Assembly (NCBI GenBank): GCA_013349325.1
Contig: DUZX01000030.1
Coordinates: 1 to 46,099, forward strand
DNA length: 46,099 bases
Direction: 5' to 3'
Origin: Desulfuromonadales bacterium
Lineage (GTDB): Bacteria; Desulfobacterota; Desulfuromonadia; Geobacterales; Pseudopelobacteraceae
The translations under genes were made by a program, and so were the position numbers. Below are positions 2,686 through 11,177 of this stretch, in pieces (position 1 is the first letter of the stretch; every line of letters begins with the position of its first letter). The notes under the pieces were generated by a model. It saw only the letters and a list, made by a program, of their open reading frames with translations, was not told where the DNA came from and made no database searches.

Positions 2686-3180
2686 TCAGTACCCAAAGCT
2701 GACAGATATTTTAGGCGTAACCGTTAGCGTAAGGTCAATACCCTGCGGACCGGTCGGTTGAAAATCAAGCGGAACAATTGAAGTAAATTGCGAATCTTGC
2801 AAAGTTTTTCCCGGAGTGACATCACAGATAACTCGTGCAAAAGGACCAATTGCAAGGTCATTACCTGTCGGCATATTTACAATACTGATCTGACGGGTTG
2901 CAGCTGAATAAGTACCGGTGGCTACCTGTCCGACACCTTGCAGAGCACCACTGCTGATCTCGTCTGTACCTGCTTTCGTTGCAACCGTAACACCATCCGG
3001 CAACGTGGCAACCACAGATATACCTCGCAGTTTGACAGTTGCGTCTGACGTAGTCGTTGCAAAGACTACGGTTGCTGTTTTCTGCTCCTGAGACACGACT
3101 CCCGCAGAACCACCGCCACCACACGCCTGAAGAACAAGTGGAATAAGGAATGTGACCGCACATACACATATTTTTTTCAT
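2686..3180 (-). CDS. Small secreted lipoprotein, possible cohesin-like domain
   Basis: A 164-residue protein beginning MKKICVCAV with a lipobox LQAC followed by four glycines, so it is probably a lipoprotein processed at Cys20. I chose the ATG at 3180 because GGGAG lies at the right distance and the signal peptide then starts normally; an upstream in-frame start would add 13 odd residues. The mature part is Thr/Val/Ser-rich and predicted all-beta, with segments such as LRGISVVATLPDGVTVAT and VGEF-like GPFARVICDVTP. This layout recalls cohesin or cohesin-like modules. The idea is strengthened by the neighbour immediately upstream, which ends in a dockerin. The assignment to a cohesin fold is inference; the export signal is clear. 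It lies between the NHL/dockerin gene (32 bp gap) and the giant cytochrome gene. Confidence 0.75.
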   Translation of the reverse strand: MKKICVCAVTFLIPLVLQACGGGGSAGVVSQEQKTATVVFATTTSDATVKLRGISVVATLPDGVTVATKAGTDEISSGALQGVGQVATGTYSAATRQISIVNMPTGNDLAIGPFARVICDVTPGKTLQDSQFTSIVPLDFQPTGPQGIDLTLTVTPKISVSFGY

Positions 3181-3212
3181 AGATACTCCCACGCAACGAG
3201 TCATGAAATTTG

Positions 3213-5861
3213 CTACCACGATGTCAGCCCGATTATTTTCTCTATCATAACGACAATATCCGACATCCGAATATGACTATCAACACTTGGGGCTCCATTA
3301 ATAATCGGACCGACATCACCATGCAGCAGTTGATTGAATGACGGATGCGGAGCAAGTCCTGCCAGTACTTTTAACGCTTCAAGCGCATCAGCGATATCGA
3401 CTTTACCATCCAGATTTAAGTCACCATCCCTACTGCTCAGGCCTGCTGCTGAAAATGCCTGAATGTTGAGCGTTGACGGGTCATAGGTAACACCGGTTAA
3501 ATCAAGAGTGGGGATCCCATTTACGTATACGATAGTTCCAACCGGTCCATTTTTATCTTTCGCACTCAGCGCACCACCTGGAGCGGAAACTTTAATTGTA
3601 GATGGCGAAGCTGATACGGTTGTAAGTACAGGTGGATTCGGATCATAGACAACCGAACGGGTGCTGGTTGAGGTAGCACCGGAAATCGGATCAGTTACAC
3701 TTACGGTTACTGCATACGATGCCGTCGAGCCTGCAGCAGCTGTCATAGTTGGAATGGTTACTGAAAAAGCACCCGTATTCGCATCGACCGCAACCGACGT
3801 CGGTACACCGTTGACAAGGGCAGTCACAATCGATTTAGCAGGAGCTGAACCGGTAATGGTATAGCTGGTTGTTGCTACCGGTGCATCCTTGGCTGGTGAG
3901 GTGATTGAAAGAGAGGGCAGACCAGGCGCATACGAAACCATTGTCATGGTCGTTGTCGCTGCACCGCCGGTAGCCGGTGTTGCCTTGACTTCAAAGCTGT
4001 TTCTGCCTTGTGTCAGAGGCACGTCCGCACTCCAGCCGGTTCCTGACTGTACGGCTGCGGCTCCGTTTACGGTCACGACGCTACCTGCAGGAGCAACTCC
4101 GGCGAGATGGTAGGTCGCAGAACTACTGACAGTGCCGACCGGAGTCGAAACCGTAACAATCGGGGCCTGGGGGTCATACGTTATTGAACTTGCAAGTGCC
4201 TTGATGGTCGCCCCGAACGAGTCAACTACTGAAAGAGTTACGCTGTTTGGCCCCTGGGCAAGTATGACCGGCACTGAAAACAAGCCATCGCTCACCGAGA
4301 CTGGTGGCAGGGGTGCACCATTTACTGTAATGATGACGGTTACCGCATTTGTATTGTTGCTTACTTTTCCGGATAGAGTCTGTAGTGGCGCACTGAAAGT
4401 ACTGCCGGTTGACGGCAGTCCGGTGGCTACGACAGGCATACTGGTATCAAGCGTAACCGAAACGTCAAGCGTACTGCTACCCATGCCGGTTTTACTGCCA
4501 ATGATACGGAGCGTGTTGGCCCCGGCGATCAGGGTAGTCGTTGCACTCCAGGAAGTCCCCGTAACTGTTGCATTAATCGTATTTGATCCGTTAGAGAGCG
4601 TAACACTTCCGCCAGCAGTGATCGTACCGGAAATCTTCACAACAGGATCTGCTGTCTGAGCCGTTACCGGTGCAACCGTCAAGGTGACTGGATTAGGTTC
4701 AGGTGTAAGCGCCGTCACGGTAACAGACTTTGTCGTGGTACCCTTTGCATCAGCTGCAGCGACAACAAAAGTGTTGACTCCCACCACAAGATTAACCGTA
4801 CCGCTCCAGGCTGCTCCACTGAGCTGAGCTGGTATCCCGTTGATCGTTACCGTATTTCCTGTCGTGGTGCCGGATAGCACCAAAGTAGCCGTATTGGTCG
4901 CCTGCGGCAGTGCATCTATCTGCAGCATGGGACCGTACACAGCATCCGCTATTTTAAAGAGTGAGAGTTTCCCCACTCCATTGGCAACAACAAGTTGACT
5001 GCCTTTATTAAACAGAATGTCAGAAGGTGCAATCAGCTTTCCGTCCGTAATGCCGTAACTGCCTATGTATCTGACAAAAGTATCACTGGCGCCGTCAATA
5101 ATCTGAATTGTACTCTGAAAGGCATCGACGACATATATTCGCTTCAGGGTTGTCTGATCTGGACTGTATTCAAAGGAGATCGATTGCGGGGAGGTAAATT
5201 TGAGCGGGCCGGAGCCAAAAGATCCGATGCTTTTTTGGTAGATGCCCGTTGTAGAGAAAAACTGTACACGACCGTTGCGGGTATCAGCAACCGCCAGTTG
5301 GTCAGAAACTTTTTCATAGCTGATGCCGGTCGGCTGGAAGAATTGTCCTGCTGCGCTCCCTGCGGATCCAAAACTATTGGTAGCTCCGATGAGCACAGGA
5401 GCGAAACTGGAATTAAAAACCTGAACATTATTTTTAAGGCTGTCGACAACAAAAATATCGCCGGTTTTTGTGACTGCGATACCGTTCGCTTTACCAAACG
5501 TACCAAACTGACTCAGCTTTGTTCCTGCTGATGAATACACCGCGACTGATGCCCCCTGGCTGACCAGCAGATTACCAGATGCTGTCACAGCAACCCCGAG
5601 AGAATCGGCTGTGGCCACAATCTTTGATTGATATGCTCCAACACTGTCGAACTTGACTATGGCACCACTACGCGGATCACTGACATAGAGTGCCCCGGCG
5701 CTGTCCTCAGCCAATCGGACCGGCGTGCTGAGAGCCGATGAGATTGACGACAGAGAGGTAATATCCGGCGCAATAACCGCAAGTGAAGCGCTTGCAGCCG
5801 CAAGAAAAACAAGCAGTACAAGCATCAGGCAACGACCAATTTTAGGCGGTGTATGATTCAT
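3213..5861 (-). CDS. Secreted NHL beta-propeller protein with Ig-like repeats and C-terminal dockerin
   Basis: An 882-residue exported protein. The ATG at 5861 is preceded by GGGGAGG and gives a clean signal peptide (MLVLLVFLAAASASLA). Residues ~35-310 show NHL-type repeats (for example TPVRLAEDSAGALYVSD, FQPTGISYEKVSDQLAVADT, GRVQFF), likely a beta-propeller. Residues ~320-790 hold about five Ig-like or glucodextranase-type repeats marked by G.NTFVV.A.D and GPNSVTLSVVD phrases. The C-terminus (about residue 810 onward) is dockerin-like: DLNLDGKVDIADALEALKVL is a classical calcium-loop/helix repeat, followed by a weaker second repeat ending MSDIVVMIEKIIGL. It is the first gene behind the cGAMP-type riboswitch. 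Its role is probably as a surface or extracellular scaffold; no enzymatic domain is visible. Confidence 0.85.
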   Translation of the reverse strand: MNHTPPKIGRCLMLVLLVFLAAASASLAVIAPDITSLSSISSALSTPVRLAEDSAGALYVSDPRSGAIVKFDSVGAYQSKIVATADSLGVAVTASGNLLVSQGASVAVYSSAGTKLSQFGTFGKANGIAVTKTGDIFVVDSLKNNVQVFNSSFAPVLIGATNSFGSAGSAAGQFFQPTGISYEKVSDQLAVADTRNGRVQFFSTTGIYQKSIGSFGSGPLKFTSPQSISFEYSPDQTTLKRIYVVDAFQSTIQIIDGASDTFVRYIGSYGITDGKLIAPSDILFNKGSQLVVANGVGKLSLFKIADAVYGPMLQIDALPQATNTATLVLSGTTTGNTVTINGIPAQLSGAAWSGTVNLVVGVNTFVVAAADAKGTTTKSVTVTALTPEPNPVTLTVAPVTAQTADPVVKISGTITAGGSVTLSNGSNTINATVTGTSWSATTTLIAGANTLRIIGSKTGMGSSTLDVSVTLDTSMPVVATGLPSTGSTFSAPLQTLSGKVSNNTNAVTVIITVNGAPLPPVSVSDGLFSVPVILAQGPNSVTLSVVDSFGATIKALASSITYDPQAPIVTVSTPVGTVSSSATYHLAGVAPAGSVVTVNGAAAVQSGTGWSADVPLTQGRNSFEVKATPATGGAATTTMTMVSYAPGLPSLSITSPAKDAPVATTSYTITGSAPAKSIVTALVNGVPTSVAVDANTGAFSVTIPTMTAAAGSTASYAVTVSVTDPISGATSTSTRSVVYDPNPPVLTTVSASPSTIKVSAPGGALSAKDKNGPVGTIVYVNGIPTLDLTGVTYDPSTLNIQAFSAAGLSSRDGDLNLDGKVDIADALEALKVLAGLAPHPSFNQLLHGDVGPIINGAPSVDSHIRMSDIVVMIEKIIGLTSW

Positions 5862-5924
5862 CGTTATTTTCCTCCCCCGTGAGGGAATTTCTTTATTAAT
5901 CGGCATGTTATATTTTATTGACAA

Positions 5925-5946
5925 TAAAAAAACCGGATGCCGGTAT
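5925..5946 (-). terminator. Intrinsic terminator serving as riboswitch expression platform
   Basis: Read on the minus strand, ACCGG-CAT-CCGGT is followed directly by a run of seven T. It sits just downstream of the riboswitch aptamer and about 65 bases before the start codon of the NHL/dockerin gene, the expected place for ligand-controlled termination. Confidence 0.75.
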
Positions 5947-5949
5947 CAA

Positions 5950-6042
5950 CTGATGATAGTTCGGCAACCCGGCTGTCTCGTAAAGACCCTGTAGGCTTTC
6001 CGCCCCATCCTCGCGGATGGTTTAGTAGTATCGCGTATCGCT
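5950..6042 (-). promoter_or_regulatory. GEMM-I riboswitch, probably the cGAMP-sensing (GEMM-Ib) type
   Basis: The minus strand carries the GEMM-I core: AAACCATCC, a GCGA tetraloop, GGATGGGGCGGAAAGCC, a P3 arm closing on GAGACAGCC, then GGGTTGCCGAA. These are the conserved AAACC, GNRA tetraloop, AAAGCC and GGGTTGCC elements of the class. Aligned by hand to the Vc2 aptamer, the ligand-contacting base 20 is A (plus-strand T6026) and the 21:46 pair is C:G. A20 marks the Geobacter variants that bind 3',3'-cyclic AMP-GMP rather than c-di-GMP. A terminator follows. Class membership is near certain; ligand choice is a hand-alignment inference. Confidence 0.85.
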
Positions 6043-6064
6043 CTTTCGATTTTAATGAACGGGC

Positions 6065-6094
6065 AGACTAGAGGCATTTGCATCGTCGTGTCAA
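6065..6094 (-). promoter_or_regulatory. Sigma-70-type promoter of the riboswitch transcript
   Basis: On the minus strand TTGACA (6094-6089) and TAGTCT (6070-6065) are separated by 18 bases. The start would fall near 6058, a few bases before the aptamer, and 30 bases after the stop codon of the upstream cytochrome gene. The -35 box is perfect; the -10 box is weak. Confidence 0.5.
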
Positions 6095-6123: not shown

Positions 6124-7359
6124 TTACTGCCAGATCTTTGACACACCTGGGTGGCAGACACTTATCTGCACTCCTGCCGACGGAGCAGTACCGTTTACCA
6201 TGCAACTTTTCTGAACAGTGTCGTAGGTTATAAAACTGTAGAGCGTTGAAGATGGTAACGTATCCAAGAGCTTGGTAGAGACATCTTTAAAATGGTTCGA
6301 TGGAGAAGTCATATCGTGGCAATCCCTGCAGACGATTCCTCTGCTAAGGTGATATGTATGTTTACCGGAATTATAACTATTGTACTCCGCAGTTCCTGAA
6401 GCATGGCACGCGGTGCAATTGCTGAGGACATCAAAACTGCTGCCCCAGACAGGTGTCGCCTGCCCGCCGTGACAACTCACATTGGCGCATTTAGCGCTTG
6501 CAACGTCATATGAAGCGGCGCCTGAGTTGGCACTGAAATTTGAAGCAAACGTTAACGGCACGGCAGTTCCGGAGCCATGATTTGTTGTCCCGGTGCCTTT
6601 ACCCGTATGACAGACGGCACAGTTTCCGGACATGCCACCAAGCGCCATATGCGCCGCATGCGAACCGGCCCGATTTGGCGTTGCTGCCCCATTGGGTGGA
6701 TTTCCATGGCAGGATACGCACTGTCCGGCAACCGGAACAGTACCGCTCAAAAGTTTTTTGTGACAGGTATTACATGCCGGAGCGCCGATACTCACACTGC
6801 CTTCATAGAGTGCACCATGACAAAGTGCACAGGCATTGGCAAGATTACCCGCAGTGTTATGAGTTTTCCATGGTTTGGGGTGCGCCATATTCGCGAGGTG
6901 ACAGCCGGAGGCTTCACAACCCGTAGCAAGAGATCCAATTGCTTTGATAAAGCGTGGATTACTACCGGCTCCACCGGCTGCCCCGTGGCAATCCTGACAG
7001 ATGATCAGATCTTTTTTTGCCTCAGTCCCATGGAGAGCAGGAGCCTTAAACGGAAGCTGATGCGCAAGCTGACGGGGGGGATGTCCACCAGCGTGGCACT
7101 GCCCCAATCCAGCCTGGTTGAAACAATCGATTTTCGTAACCCCACCTTTAAGATCGGTCCCATGGCAGCTGCGGCATACGTCCGGAGTTGTTATGTACGC
7201 AGCCCGATGTGCCGTCAACCAATCGGCAGGATGCTTATTAACAGCACTCAACTGGACGCCAGCATCATTCGATTTTCCACACGCTGTCAGGAATGTAGAG
7301 ACAACAAGTATTGCTGCACACCGGAGCACATATCCAAACATGGTCAGATCCTTTTTCAT
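6124..7359 (-). CDS. Multihaem cytochrome c lipoprotein with 10-12 haem sites (ExtD-like position)
   Basis: A 411-residue protein with a signal peptide and lipobox LTAC near residue 27, so probably anchored in the outer membrane. It has eight CxxCH motifs (CRSCH, CQDCH, CALCH, CNTCH, CVSCH, CAVCH, CTACH, CRDCH) and two CxxxxCH motifs (CEASGCH, CANVSCH). Two further stretches, CFNQAGLGQCH near residue 80 and a Cys...ISVCH pair with 15 intervening residues near the C-terminus, could be non-standard haem sites. AGGAG precedes the ATG. It follows the five-haem lipoprotein gene by 11 bp, so the two are surely co-transcribed. With the porin upstream, the set resembles an outer-membrane electron conduit in which this protein would be one of the surface or periplasmic cytochromes. 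Confidence 0.88.
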   Translation of the reverse strand: MKKDLTMFGYVLRCAAILVVSTFLTACGKSNDAGVQLSAVNKHPADWLTAHRAAYITTPDVCRSCHGTDLKGGVTKIDCFNQAGLGQCHAGGHPPRQLAHQLPFKAPALHGTEAKKDLIICQDCHGAAGGAGSNPRFIKAIGSLATGCEASGCHLANMAHPKPWKTHNTAGNLANACALCHGALYEGSVSIGAPACNTCHKKLLSGTVPVAGQCVSCHGNPPNGAATPNRAGSHAAHMALGGMSGNCAVCHTGKGTGTTNHGSGTAVPLTFASNFSANSGAASYDVASAKCANVSCHGGQATPVWGSSFDVLSNCTACHASGTAEYNSYNSGKHTYHLSRGIVCRDCHDMTSPSNHFKDVSTKLLDTLPSSTLYSFITYDTVQKSCMVNGTAPSAGVQISVCHPGVSKIWQ

Positions 7360-7370
7360 CTATCTGTCTC

Positions 7371-7847
7371 CTAGCGGTGGCACTGAATACAGCGTTCATT
7401 GTTGGCGCGGCCATGACAGCGATAGCAACTGGCGGGATCAAGCTTGCCTTCTATCTTGTGCATGGTCATGAAGTTGCCGCGATGCTGCATCTCACGGTCG
7501 GGACGATTGCCGAATTTTGTGGATGGTTTAATCTGGACTTTGTTGGTATGGCAGTCATTGCAGAAGGAGCTTTTGTGGCAGGTACTGCAGAGTCGATCAT
7601 CAGATGCAGCATAAAAGCGGTGACTTTTGACAAAAACGGGTGAGTGGTTGAAGGCTTTGTAGGGTTTCAAGGTGCCCTTCTGCTGGTCTTCGTGACATTC
7701 GGCACAATTAACCTGCTGGCCGATAGCCAAAGCTTCCGGATGGGACGCGGGCAGACTCGGCAGGGTACCCATCTGGGCACAGGCCGCAATAAAGAACAAC
7801 AATCCTGCGGTAGCCAGAATCGAAACGGTCAGTTTAAGCTGGTTCAT
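7371..7847 (-). CDS. Five-haem cytochrome c lipoprotein (ExtC-like position)
   Basis: A 158-residue protein with a signal peptide and lipobox IAAC (Cys23). Five CxxCH motifs are visible: CAECH, CSTCH, CNDCH, CYRCH and CIQCH, the last one only one residue from the C-terminus. Extra histidines (NHSPVFVKSH, MQHRGNFMTMH) could be distal haem ligands. The start codon overlaps the stop codon of the porin gene (TAATG), which implies translational coupling and close stoichiometry. Small lipid-anchored pentahaem cytochromes next to a porin are a hallmark of Geobacter ext-type conduits, so I infer a role in moving electrons through or onto the outer membrane. Confidence 0.88.
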   Translation of the reverse strand: MNQLKLTVSILATAGLLFFIAACAQMGTLPSLPASHPEALAIGQQVNCAECHEDQQKGTLKPYKAFNHSPVFVKSHRFYAASDDRLCSTCHKSSFCNDCHTNKVQIKPSTKFGNRPDREMQHRGNFMTMHKIEGKLDPASCYRCHGRANNERCIQCHR

Positions 7848-9163
7848 TATTTCCCCCCTTTGATATCAAAGGTCGTGTTGTAGGTCAGGCGCAGCAGGCC
7901 TTTGGTCTCGTCAGTAAATTCGGGGTTTTTACCATAGCTTACATCACCGGACAGGGCCAGGGCGGGGGTCAGATGATAGCCGAGTGAAATAGTGCCTTCC
8001 CAGGCACTTTTTTCATTGAATAGTTTTTCTTTAAAGAGATAGGCAATCACATCAAGAGCCGCAAAGTATCCCTTGGTTTCATGAAGCAGATACCCGCGCA
8101 GCTCGTGATAGGAAGCAGAGATGTACGGCGTGATGGCAAATCCCTGACTGGCACGCAGGTAATGATAGCCGAAACCGCCCCGAATGCTGTTGTCACTGAA
8201 ACTGAGTCGAGCGTCTGCGCCGAAGCGGTCGGCGTTGCCCAGTGTACGGGTATAGTGTTTGTAATCAGCGGCCACCCCTATGCTTTTGGAGATTTGATAG
8301 GAGCTGCTGCCACCAATGACGCGGGACCTCTCGTTGGGTTTATAGCTGGGCATAGTGGAAAACAGAGAGGCGGCGGAGAGATAGCCCCCAGAGCGGTGCT
8401 CATTAAACTCACCGCTTACGATCAACCCTTCGAGCGGCTTGACGCTCAGCAGGTAGCTGTGCTCGGCAACTGATTTTGTCTCCGGACTGTAACTGCTCTG
8501 CCCCATGAGGGTGACCATTTTATGAGGGGAAAAATAGAGATCACCACCCATCAGACGGTGGCTACTGTTGATATGGCTGACCAGTGAAGGGGCTTTCGCC
8601 TCAAAGAGCCCGGACAGCCCCAGTTCCAGCATACCCAGATAACGATAGGTGGCGCGACCACCAGCGATGGTATCACCCTTGCCATCGCTGGTTTCACCAG
8701 AGAGTTTTTTGCCATGAACGACAGCACCGGCAAACGTCGAAATGCCGAAACCGGCCGGCAGGTCTGTGCGCGCAGAAAGCCCATCTATCTGTTCGTTGAC
8801 GATCCCTTCGTGGATAAACATCCGTCCCAAGCGGGCATTGGCGTTGGCCTCTTTAAAACGATACTGCAGATAGCCGTAAGTAAAGTTACCATCCACGTTT
8901 TCACGGTTATAGCTATTATCGGCCAAGTCAGCCCGTCCCCAGCCGTAAAGGTGCAGGGAAAGATTGCCGTCGGCGAGCTTGTCGACGTCCAGACCCAGAA
9001 ACTGGGTGGCAGGCAGCAGCGTTTCACTTTTTGCGCCGGAAACATCACGTTGGCCGATTCCGAGCAGGGTGCTGGTATCAACGCTTACATCAGCTGCCAA
9101 TGCGATTGACGAAGCTGTTGCAAATGAAACTGCACAGACCACTGTGCACCACACGTTCTTCAT
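7847..9163 (-). CDS. Outer-membrane beta-barrel porin of a porin-cytochrome conduit (ExtB-like)
   Basis: A 438-residue protein with a signal peptide (cleavage after ALAA near residue 24) and no haem motif. The mature sequence is rich in alternating aromatic/polar strands (LSLHLYGWGRADL, YGYLQYRFKEANANARLGR, FGYHYLRASQGF) typical of an outer-membrane beta barrel. CAGGAG lies upstream of the ATG. It is the first gene of a tight three-gene run with two cytochrome lipoproteins, the arrangement seen in Geobacter porin-cytochrome systems in which the barrel sheathes cytochromes across the outer membrane. I find no counterpart of a leading periplasmic cytochrome gene upstream, where leuA sits instead. 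Similarity to ExtB rests on size and context, not on a search. Confidence 0.75.
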   Translation of the reverse strand: MKNVWCTVVCAVSFATASSIALAADVSVDTSTLLGIGQRDVSGAKSETLLPATQFLGLDVDKLADGNLSLHLYGWGRADLADNSYNRENVDGNFTYGYLQYRFKEANANARLGRMFIHEGIVNEQIDGLSARTDLPAGFGISTFAGAVVHGKKLSGETSDGKGDTIAGGRATYRYLGMLELGLSGLFEAKAPSLVSHINSSHRLMGGDLYFSPHKMVTLMGQSSYSPETKSVAEHSYLLSVKPLEGLIVSGEFNEHRSGGYLSAASLFSTMPSYKPNERSRVIGGSSSYQISKSIGVAADYKHYTRTLGNADRFGADARLSFSDNSIRGGFGYHYLRASQGFAITPYISASYHELRGYLLHETKGYFAALDVIAYLFKEKLFNEKSAWEGTISLGYHLTPALALSGDVSYGKNPEFTDETKGLLRLTYNTTFDIKGGK

Positions 9164-9295: not shown

Positions 9296-10855
9296 TTACA
9301 CCGCTTCAACCATTCTTTTTTGTTTATTATTCAGACGGTTAAGAGCGTGTATATACGCTTTGGCGGAAGCGACGATAATATCCGTTGAAGCGCCTTTTCC
9401 GACAACAGTATGATTCCCTTCGCTTACACGGACCGTAACTTCGCCTTGCGCATCAGTCCCCCCGGTGATGGAGCCGACATTGTACTGACTCAACGTGGCT
9501 TTTGATTTGGTCAATTTTTTGATCGCTTTGAATGTTGAATCGACCGGGCCATCACCCATTTCTGCCATTCTGACCGCAACACCGTTGATTTCCATCTGTA
9601 CGGTTGCAGTTGCAACCGCAAAAGAGCCACAGGTGACCGTAATCTGGTCAAGCTTGTAGAGATCCTCTTCGCGCGCTTCATCTGTAACGATCGCATCGAG
9701 ATCTTCGTCAAAGACCTCTTTTTTCAGGTCAGCCAGTTCTTTGAAGCGGATAAAAGCGCGGCTGAACTGTTCGTCGTTCAGGTCATAGCCCAGCTCCAAC
9801 AGCCGTTTTTTGAGGGCGTGGTGACCAGAGTGCTTACCCAGCACGATAGAGCTTGCCGAGAGACCGACGGATTCGGGGGTCATTATTTCGTACGTTGACT
9901 TCTCCATCAACATGCCATGCTGGTGAATGCCAGCTTCATGCGCAAAAGCGTTGGCACCGACAACAGCCTTATTCGGCTGCACCGGAATACCGGTGATGGT
10001 GGTGAGCAGGCGACTGGCCGGCGTGAGGTGATCTGTCACTATATTGGTCGTAAAGGGGAGAATATCGCGCCGGGTCCGCAGGATCATAACGAATTCTTCC
10101 AGAGAACAGTTTCCGGCCCGCTCTCCGATGCCATTAATCGTGCATTCCACTTGACCGGCTCCGGCCTGTATTGCGGCAATAGAGTTAGCAACCGACAGCC
10201 CCAAATCGTTATGGCAGTGAACCGAGATGACGGCCTTGTCGATGTTGGGGACCGTATCTTTGAGATATTTTATGATATTAAAGTATTCGAACGGGACCGT
10301 ATATCCCACCGTATCCGGAATATTGACCGTGGTGGCGCCGGCAGCAATCACCGCTTCGACAACCTCAGCCAGAAAAGGCAAACGGGTGCGGACCGCGTCT
10401 TCACAGGAAAATTCGACATTGGGAGTATATAAGGCCGCACGCTTTACCGCCTTGACCGCAGCCGCCAGGACCTTGTCCGGCTCCATCTGTAGCTTGTACT
10501 TCATATGAATATCAGACGTGGCGATAAAAGTGTGGATACGACCCCGTTCACCGGCATATTTAAGCGCATCCCAAGCACGATCGATATCTTTCTCACTGGA
10601 ACGGCAGAGCCCGGCAATCTGCGGTCCTTTGATGGTTTGTGCCACCAGCCTGACCGCTTCAAAGTCACCATCGGAAGCGATTGGAAAACCTGCTTCGATA
10701 ACGTCGACATTCAGCTTCTGTAGCTGCTTGGCAATGCGCAGCTTCTCCTCGATATTCATGCTATTGCCGGGCGCCTGTTCACCATCTCGCAGGGTGGTGT
10801 CAAATATTCTGATAATCTGGTGGTCATCCTGTGCAACTGTTTTCGCTTTTGCCAT
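9296..10855 (-). CDS. leuA: 2-isopropylmalate synthase
   Basis: A 519-residue enzyme that condenses acetyl-CoA with 2-oxoisovalerate, the first committed step of leucine synthesis. The N-terminal TIM barrel shows DTTLRDGEQAPGNSMN at the start and the metal-binding VHCHNDLGLS in the middle; FAHEAGIHQHG and GKHSGHHAL follow in the linker region. The C-terminal ~130 residues match the LeuA regulatory domain, including MGDGPVDSTFKAI, which is where leucine feedback acts. The ATG at 10855 follows AAGGAG at good spacing; a longer start at 10915 would run into the T-box terminator leader and is unlikely. It is a single-gene unit controlled by the leucine T-box directly upstream. Confidence 0.97.
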   Translation of the reverse strand: MAKAKTVAQDDHQIIRIFDTTLRDGEQAPGNSMNIEEKLRIAKQLQKLNVDVIEAGFPIASDGDFEAVRLVAQTIKGPQIAGLCRSSEKDIDRAWDALKYAGERGRIHTFIATSDIHMKYKLQMEPDKVLAAAVKAVKRAALYTPNVEFSCEDAVRTRLPFLAEVVEAVIAAGATTVNIPDTVGYTVPFEYFNIIKYLKDTVPNIDKAVISVHCHNDLGLSVANSIAAIQAGAGQVECTINGIGERAGNCSLEEFVMILRTRRDILPFTTNIVTDHLTPASRLLTTITGIPVQPNKAVVGANAFAHEAGIHQHGMLMEKSTYEIMTPESVGLSASSIVLGKHSGHHALKKRLLELGYDLNDEQFSRAFIRFKELADLKKEVFDEDLDAIVTDEAREEDLYKLDQITVTCGSFAVATATVQMEINGVAVRMAEMGDGPVDSTFKAIKKLTKSKATLSQYNVGSITGGTDAQGEVTVRVSEGNHTVVGKGASTDIIVASAKAYIHALNRLNNKQKRMVEAV

Positions 10856-10935
10856 GTTTTGTACTCCTTTCAGTTTCGTACAGCTGTTTTGTGTATCATA
10901 CCGGAATGTGTACATAATTTACTACTGATACTCAT

Positions 10936-10968
10936 AAAAAAACCCCTACCCCTCATTTGGGGCAGAGG
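10936..10968 (-). terminator. T-box terminator hairpin
   Basis: On the minus strand CCTCTGCCCC-AAATGA-GGGGTAGGGG forms a ten-pair stem followed by seven T. It lies directly after the T-box sequence and would be disrupted when uncharged tRNA-Leu stabilises the antiterminator. Confidence 0.85.
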
Positions 10969-11177
10969 CTCTAGCCATCCGCGGTACCACCCAATTCGCC
11001 TGCACTGACAACATGCCGACCTTGATTACACCTTTGACGCAGGCTCACGGCTCCGACTACATATCACCGGAGCGGCTCCAAGGCGAGTTCCCCACGTCTG
11101 CTTACCGGTTCGCACCAACCACCGGCTCTCTGAGAAGCATGCTTTGGGTACTATTCCTCTTCACTGCCGTTACATTT
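10936..11177 (-). promoter_or_regulatory. Leucine T-box leader of leuA
   Basis: The minus strand shows the T-box core AATTGGGTGGTACCGCGG (10979-10996), whose TGG bulge pairs with the NCCA end of uncharged tRNA. Stem I elements are present in order: AGTA (in GAATAGTACC), AGAGAGCCGG, GGTTGGTGCGAACCGG, and GGGAA followed by CTC. In T-boxes the specifier codon follows the GAA of the S-turn, so CTC (leucine) is the predicted specifier, which agrees with the leuA gene behind it. Low charged tRNA-Leu would allow read-through into leuA. Confidence 0.9.

Follow-up and report, generated by a model that had tools for sequence, protein, structure and literature searches.

We analysed contig DUZX01000030.1 of a Desulfuromonadales bacterium (GenBank assembly GCA_013349325.1) over its full length (46,099 nucleotides (nt), positions 1 to 46,099; hereafter the window), and in it a GEMM-I riboswitch that lies between the genes of a probable porin-cytochrome conduit and those of an NHL protein, a small lipoprotein and a giant cytochrome. 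The genome searched consisted of 3.58 Mb in 72 contigs, the window being contig C30. All the features of the unit and of its switch are encoded on the minus strand and, from 5′ to 3′ on that strand, they are in the order: leuA-like gene, barrel, 5-haem lipoprotein, 8-haem lipoprotein, aptamer, terminator, NHL-dockerin, cohesin-like lipoprotein and giant cytochrome.

The aptamer, at 5960-6036 (its helix P1 reaches 5955-6039), is followed by an intrinsic terminator, obtained from the fold of the leader, at 5925-5974, the 5′ arm of which is the 3′ strand of the aptamer. Downstream from it, the gene at 3213-5861, with its ATG at 5861, encodes a secreted NHL beta-propeller protein with glucodextranase-B/Ig-like domains (Pfam matches NHL, 7.9e-10, and Glucodextran_B, 3.5e-20) and a C-terminal dockerin-like domain (3216-3464), the latter assigned by predicted fold and calcium-loop motif. 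The next gene (2686-3180, ATG at 3180, lipobox Cys codon starting at 3123, mature part at 2689-3123) encodes a lipoprotein with a predicted cohesin fold, and the last one (1-2625) a giant multihaem c-type cytochrome, in which we counted 19 CX2CH and 4 CX4CH motifs, hence 23 haem sites in 875 codons. This number is a minimum because the contig ends within the gene; when the C-terminal half of a relative's protein was used to look for the rest, the matches, to cytochromes on contig C46, were only weak (E 2e-12 and 1e-10). The first-pass annotation of this DNA, made from the letters alone, had described the same series from GEMM-I aptamer to cytochrome with at least 23 haems, and the RF01051 match, the fold and the gene calls agree with it; the interval it had assigned, 2686-6094, covers the switch, the NHL gene and the lipoprotein and leaves the cytochrome outside, its end at 6094 being the start of a TTGACA.

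Upstream from the aptamer, haem-motif counts identified two genes for lipoprotein cytochromes, one with 8 CX2CH (plus 2 CX4CH) sites at 6124-7359 and one with 5 sites at 7371-7847, preceded at 7847-9163 by the gene of a probable outer-membrane beta-barrel, the porin of a porin-cytochrome conduit. The evidence for the latter is a sub-threshold match to an outer-membrane protein barrel together with synteny, a similar porin gene preceding the 5- and 8-haem genes in three related loci (L151, L153 and L171; labels with L are our own). The leuA-like gene (9296-10915) lies upstream of the barrel gene and is itself preceded by a T-box leader at 10955-11173 (115.5 bits).

Aptamer and candidate ligand

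The first-pass annotation had proposed a search with a GEMM-I covariance model and had made its claim depend on the closing of the aptamer pairing. The RF01051 model matched the minus strand of the window at 5960-6036 with 43.7 bits and an E of 2.2e-5 over the window, the gathering score being 35, and in the P1/P1b/P2/P3 model, a three-helix junction, 26 out of 26 pairs close. As a covariation set we considered the 22 aptamers with A at position 20 (A20 aptamers), 9 from the genome of the window and 13 from related loci. Across this set 95.3% of the cells to be paired were paired, versus 33-47% in a control in which the 3′ partners were slid; changes on both sides were found in 19 cells (shuffle mean 5.7) and involved 7 pairs (shuffle mean 3.1), the shuffle control being lenient because the 22 sequences are related. 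By energy, the aptamer stretch 5955-6044 was no better than its shuffles (z -0.89; 33 of 200 as good), and its minimum free energy structure is without P1. Folding energy, for this stretch by itself, thus does not speak for the aptamer, the case for which stands on the covariance model and on conservation. An aptamer arising by chance or artefact was ruled out by score, covariation and recurrence.

We took position 11 of the RF01051 model as the equivalent of G20 in Vc2. In the Rfam alignment the base at this point is A (6026), as the first-pass annotation had read it, so that a G20 aptamer was ruled out as far as position 20 is concerned. A in place of G at Vc2-20 is what we take to be the defining mark of the GEMM-Ib (cyclic AMP-GMP, cGAMP) subclass. 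Ten RF01051 matches are present in the genome, nine with A20 and a single one, at C3:171707, with G20.

In the solved cGAMP riboswitch the ligand is contacted by G8, A9, A11, A12, A14, C15, G40, A41, A42 and C75 (PMC6274999). We mapped these positions onto the aptamer by the contact spacing of J1/2, from numbering alone, and in this map 9 of the 10 match, the exception being A12, which is a C. The same C is found in 4 of the 9 A20 aptamers of the genome (the window at 6028, L005, L008 and L009). Since the donor-acceptor pair of C is the same as that of A, function may be kept, and affinity or preference could shift.

Candidate cGAMP synthases

GGDEF matches in the genome were 20, of which 19 were judged at the selectivity position (the fragment L037 was left out), and the canonical Asp is kept in 16 of these 19 proteins. 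The Rec-GGDEY protein L031/L210 has Ser at this position (GHLVGS), L036 has Ser with a GGDDF motif and is GSU1937-like, and L034 has Thr. The best PDB match of L210 is 6d9m, the GacA domain of Geobacter metallireducens (E 6.1e-63), which is the nearest solved structure and shares the Ser selectivity residue; L210 has GGDEY where GacA has GGDEF, within the range of the Hypr rule, that is Ser/Thr at the Asp selectivity position plus a GGDE[F/Y] motif (PMC6456294). By this rule, as judged from its sequence, L210 is a GacA-type Hypr GGDEF enzyme. In having Ser, L036 is like GSU1937 as that protein has been described (PMC8835794). Because nine of the ten GEMM-I matches of the genome are A20 and a GacA-type synthase is encoded, cGAMP is the likely ligand of the window aptamer.

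Expression platform and upstream sequences

The leader at 5925-6044 folds at -42 kcal/mol (z -3.7), with the terminator stem at 5974-5931 followed by a U-run; the short distal terminator hairpin was also detected by a pattern scan. The terminator fold pairs 12 of the last 22 nucleotides of the aptamer and hence excludes the aptamer fold. In 19 of the 22 A20 aptamers there is a hairpin with a U-run, and 10-15 of the 22 nucleotides at the 3′ end of the aptamer are drawn into this hairpin; as to the others, L005 has a broken run only, and L007 and L010 are without a U-run. An OFF switch was ruled out on layout, as one strand is common to terminator and aptamer, and the predicted arrangement is that of a transcriptional ON switch. 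An ON mechanism with the same terminator arrangement has been published for pilM of G. metallireducens (PMC9262584).

L007 and L010 (C11:31731-31807 and C38:22374-22450, respectively) precede RCC1-repeat proteins, and because a U-run is absent within 110 nt they probably use another expression platform. At C10:17164-17530 three A20 aptamers are arranged in tandem (L003, L005 and L004, in this order; L013, 2184-4283), the first and the third with clear terminators, and they precede the gene of a DUF5666-repeat protein with a cytochrome c match and a second, small cytochrome gene. Tandem pairs have been mentioned before (PMC6456294).

A possible promoter of the riboswitch, at 6065-6094, was obtained by consensus score, and it consists of TTGACA at 6094-6089 and a weak -10 element, either TCTAGT (spacing 16) or TAGTCT (spacing 18). 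The best score upstream of the aptamer is 10 out of 12, a value matched by 1% of base shuffles. Within 90 nt upstream, an exact TTGACA is present in 11 of the 22 A20 aptamers and TTGAC in 14, which in L173 abuts the aptamer itself; for only 8 of the 22 is the best promoter score matched by 5% of shuffles or fewer.

NHL protein and lipoprotein

For the lipoprotein no Pfam family was found at E 0.1, and NCBIfam was also empty; for the whole NHL protein no Pfam dockerin profile matched at E 0.1. We therefore use the terms cohesin-like and dockerin-like, respectively. In the structural comparisons, cohesins occupy ranks 1-47 of the best 50 VIA matches listed for the lipoprotein, while dockerins make up all the 26 VIA matches of the tail and ranks 1-32 in Foldseek. 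The first calcium loop of the tail, DxNxDGxxDIxD (DLNLDGKVDIAD), is intact and the second is lengthened. When solved structures were searched by sequence, the alignment of the lipoprotein retrieved no cohesin, and the tail retrieved EF-hand and dockerin proteins weakly, the best E being 0.18; aligning the lipoprotein with the tail was not informative. By the structural comparisons, the lipoprotein is predicted to have the cohesin beta-sandwich fold and the tail the paired EF-hand-like dockerin fold, which suggests that the two form a cohesin-dockerin anchor. The first-pass annotation had spoken of a scaffold, and this word gains a concrete basis because of the predicted cohesin fold of the lipoprotein.

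At E 0.001 the genome yielded 10 cohesin-like hits; of the five best, four belong to adjacent cohesin/dockerin pairs, as do 4 of the 5 dockerin-like hits, the paired matches being 27-185 bp apart. The other pairs, at C1:123568-124366, C3:49543-50485 and C52:5-820, occur with other partner proteins, clearly different ones in two of the three cases. Among 76 genomes of the family, the NHL protein is matched in 58 (many of them partial matches) and the lipoprotein in 26.

Recurrence in related loci

The cluster recurs in relatives, often behind a porin-cytochrome conduit. We considered as loci with a complete NHL gene the window and 32 of the 39 named related loci, leaving out L172, L173, L178 and L179, which are truncated, and L184-L186, which are distant. 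In these 33 loci dockerin and cohesin were both present in 17, the dockerin only in 9, neither in 7 and the cohesin only in none. Precisely, the cohesin lipoprotein was found only alongside a dockerin tail (17 of 26 loci with the tail, 0 of 7 without it; Fisher p 0.0027, kinship ignored); the layouts of L157 and L158 look near-identical. The cytochrome adjoining the cohesin has 15-46 CX2CH sites in the 16 named loci concerned. At L161 (13277-20977) a cytochrome of 2566 residues with 46 CX2CH sites lies directly 3′ of the cohesin lipoprotein. At L164, L165, L167, L169, L177 and L181 NHL-dockerin genes without an adjacent cohesin have a 4-haem cytochrome gene nearby. L166 carries a second dockerin-cohesin pair (1048-2952) on the opposite strand and a G20 (c-di-GMP-type, for cyclic di-GMP) aptamer at 6214-6290, on the other strand, about 3 kb upstream of this second pair.

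With RF01051 at the gathering threshold, one aptamer (L104) was found in the 19 relatives' loci scanned (a set of 20 less L117), in which the DNA upstream of the NHL gene was about 3 kb or less, L108 and a few others deviating slightly from this. We also used a model, R1, built on an alignment the consensus structure of which lacks P3, hence mainly a sequence model, which gave 15 hits in 43 sources (the window, the 39 named loci and 3 unnamed ones). In 11 of the 39 named loci the NHL gene has an A20 aptamer upstream on its own strand. The aptamer immediately precedes this gene in L152, L163, L172, L173, L175, L176 (two aptamers) and L180, whereas in L151, L153 and L171 it heads the conduit operon, about 100-220 bp in front of the porin gene; the longer named loci and R1 brought these last aptamers to light. 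The order in these three loci (leuA, aptamer, porin, 5-haem, 8-haem, NHL, cohesin, cytochrome) is syntenic with the window except for the place of the aptamer. In L158, from the cultured relative Geobacter argillaceus, which has the unit, the 10 kb upstream yielded no aptamer.

Discussion

In our view it is fairly probable that the riboswitch is turned on by cGAMP and that it controls the portion of an extracellular electron-transfer system that lies on the outer surface. In the absence of ligand, the terminator hairpin would take the 3′ strand of the aptamer and transcription would halt before the ATG at 5861. Once cGAMP has been raised by a GacA-type enzyme, its binding would stabilise the aptamer and block the terminator, so that the polymerase could enter the genes of the NHL-dockerin protein, the cohesin lipoprotein and the giant cytochrome. 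Folds, gene pairing and synteny suggest that the cohesin lipoprotein, in the outer membrane, would clip the NHL/Ig-like protein through its dockerin, and that the two would keep the giant cytochrome next to the porin-cytochrome conduit, the genes of which lie just upstream. The first-pass annotation had proposed that the second messenger directly switches on a surface electron-transfer structure; the ON layout, the unit downstream and the GacA-type enzyme speak for it, whereas A20 is no proof of exclusive cGAMP sensing. In fact, position 20 is described as a selectivity factor and not as a hard filter (PMC9262584), the riboswitch of the OmcST operon responds to both ligands (cited in PMC6456294), and predicted cGAMP-activated genes went up at high c-di-GMP (PMC12285248).

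Several observations weigh against this reading. In the aptamer, a C (6028) replaces A at the ligand contact A12, the equivalent of Vc2-A18. The promoter upstream of the aptamer is weak by consensus and absent from the list of the standard scan, and another promoter-like match, at 5949-5921 (9 out of 12; 0.5 expected in shuffles), overlaps the terminator, so that transcripts from it may start past most of the switch and bypass it. For the lipoprotein, the VIA Z falls smoothly past the cohesin ranks, without a clear drop, and an adjacent cohesin is absent at 9 of the 26 NHL-dockerin loci. As regards the related loci, dockerin and cohesin are both present in only 4 of the 11 that bear an aptamer (L151, L152, L153 and L171); L163 has the dockerin only, L175, L176 and L180 have neither domain, and L172, L173 and L178 are cut, the two aptamers of L178 being moreover 3.5 kb from the NHL gene, with other genes intervening. 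Of the 13 loci that combine the two domains with 3.5 kb or more of sequence upstream, 4 show an A20 aptamer and 9 do not, and because of this the switch is to be regarded as a recurrent, not a constant, part of the cluster.

The aptamer might sense c-di-GMP, or both dinucleotides about equally, in which case the unit would be tied to general surface-attachment signalling. Rfam annotates RF01051 as c-di-GMP-I, most of the GGDEF proteins judged keep the canonical Asp, and the dual-ligand case of OmcST, the response of predicted cGAMP-activated genes to high c-di-GMP and a possible shift of preference by the C at the A12/A18 contact all point in this direction. Against them are the nine A20 aptamers out of ten and the GacA-type enzyme in the same genome, and the fact that many Geobacter GEMM-I aptamers select cGAMP, that of pgcA by about 1200-fold (PMC6456294), so that we regard sensing of this kind as rather improbable. 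The riboswitch could, on the other hand, be real and yet control an NHL protein and a lipoprotein that are independent surface proteins sharing common beta-sandwich and EF-hand-like folds. The weak Foldseek E-values, the lack of Pfam matches, the search of solved structures in which no cohesin appeared, the lengthened second calcium loop and the lack of a neighbouring cohesin at 9 of the 26 loci with a dockerin would fit with this; the cohesins at VIA ranks 1-47, the dockerins in all 26 VIA matches and at Foldseek ranks 1-32 for the tail, and the four adjacent pairs of the genome, of which two besides that of the window have clearly different partners, argue for a true pair, and independence of the two proteins thus seems to us quite unlikely.

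It is also conceivable, although on balance unlikely, that the element acts as an attenuator inside a single long operon running from porin to cytochrome, tuning the ratio of surface to conduit proteins. The aptamer is just 87 bp past the 8-haem gene and on the same strand, and in L151, L153 and L171 it precedes the whole operon; conversely, the TTGACA promoter-like site just upstream of the aptamer, and the TTGAC upstream of 14 of the 22 A20 aptamers (abutting in L173), speak against it.

The most economical reading is that cGAMP would license the outer part of the electron outlet here and the whole outlet in those relatives in which the aptamer precedes the porin.

cGAMP riboswitches are known before the genes of the Geobacter outer-surface cytochromes OmcAHG, PgcA and OmcST (PMC6456294). 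The GEMM-Ib riboswitches of Geobacter are like that of the window in the GEMM-I fold, in A20, in the terminator-based ON switch and in the control of extracellular cytochromes (PMC6456294, PMC8835794, PMC9262584), whereas the window switch precedes NHL-dockerin, cohesin-like lipoprotein and giant-cytochrome genes and has C at one ligand contact. In the Ext and Omb-Oma-Omc conduits of Geobacter sulfurreducens a barrel and small lipoprotein cytochromes are likewise encoded together (PMC6148476); unlike them, the conduit genes of the window lead into scaffold and giant-cytochrome genes, and in the main text of that paper 'NHL' and 'riboswitch' have 0 occurrences. Non-cellulosomal cohesin-dockerin modules have been described in ANME archaea and syntrophic sulfate reducers, organisms which also exchange electrons outside the cell, and there they are treated as adhesins or as means of partner recognition or S-layer attachment; the available parts of these papers report neither a lipoprotein cohesin co-encoded with an NHL-dockerin protein and a giant cytochrome nor a riboswitch (PMC9012536, PMC10553843).

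In searches of one open-licence literature collection, outside which most subscription journals fall, we found no report of a cohesin-dockerin/giant-cytochrome unit in Geobacteraceae or of riboswitch control of one. Peer, in 2009, reportedly recorded cohesin/dockerin modules in Geobacter. The first-pass annotation had supposed that a riboswitch-controlled scaffold of this kind may be undescribed; this is too broad for the cGAMP control of surface cytochromes, already described as said above, and the new element seems to be the cohesin-dockerin unit under the riboswitch.

To our knowledge, it is an open question how giant extracellular cytochromes stay at the surface beside their conduits and how cells pick between electron outlets. 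The locus offers a testable answer to both, since a cohesin-dockerin clip would account for the holding and a cGAMP switch for the choice of the outlet. For the Geobacteraceae we propose, with less than even confidence, that a lipid-anchored cohesin-dockerin scaffold on the cell surface docks giant multihaem cytochromes by the outer-membrane conduit, and that a relocated cGAMP switch gates, depending on the species, either the entire outlet or its outer part only. If this is true, electron transfer would join cellulose breakdown and adhesion as a setting of cohesin-dockerin assembly, and a possible use would be the engineering of electrode-coupled cells. For the organism itself, the arrangement suggests that the cell would build this electron outlet only with the signal present.

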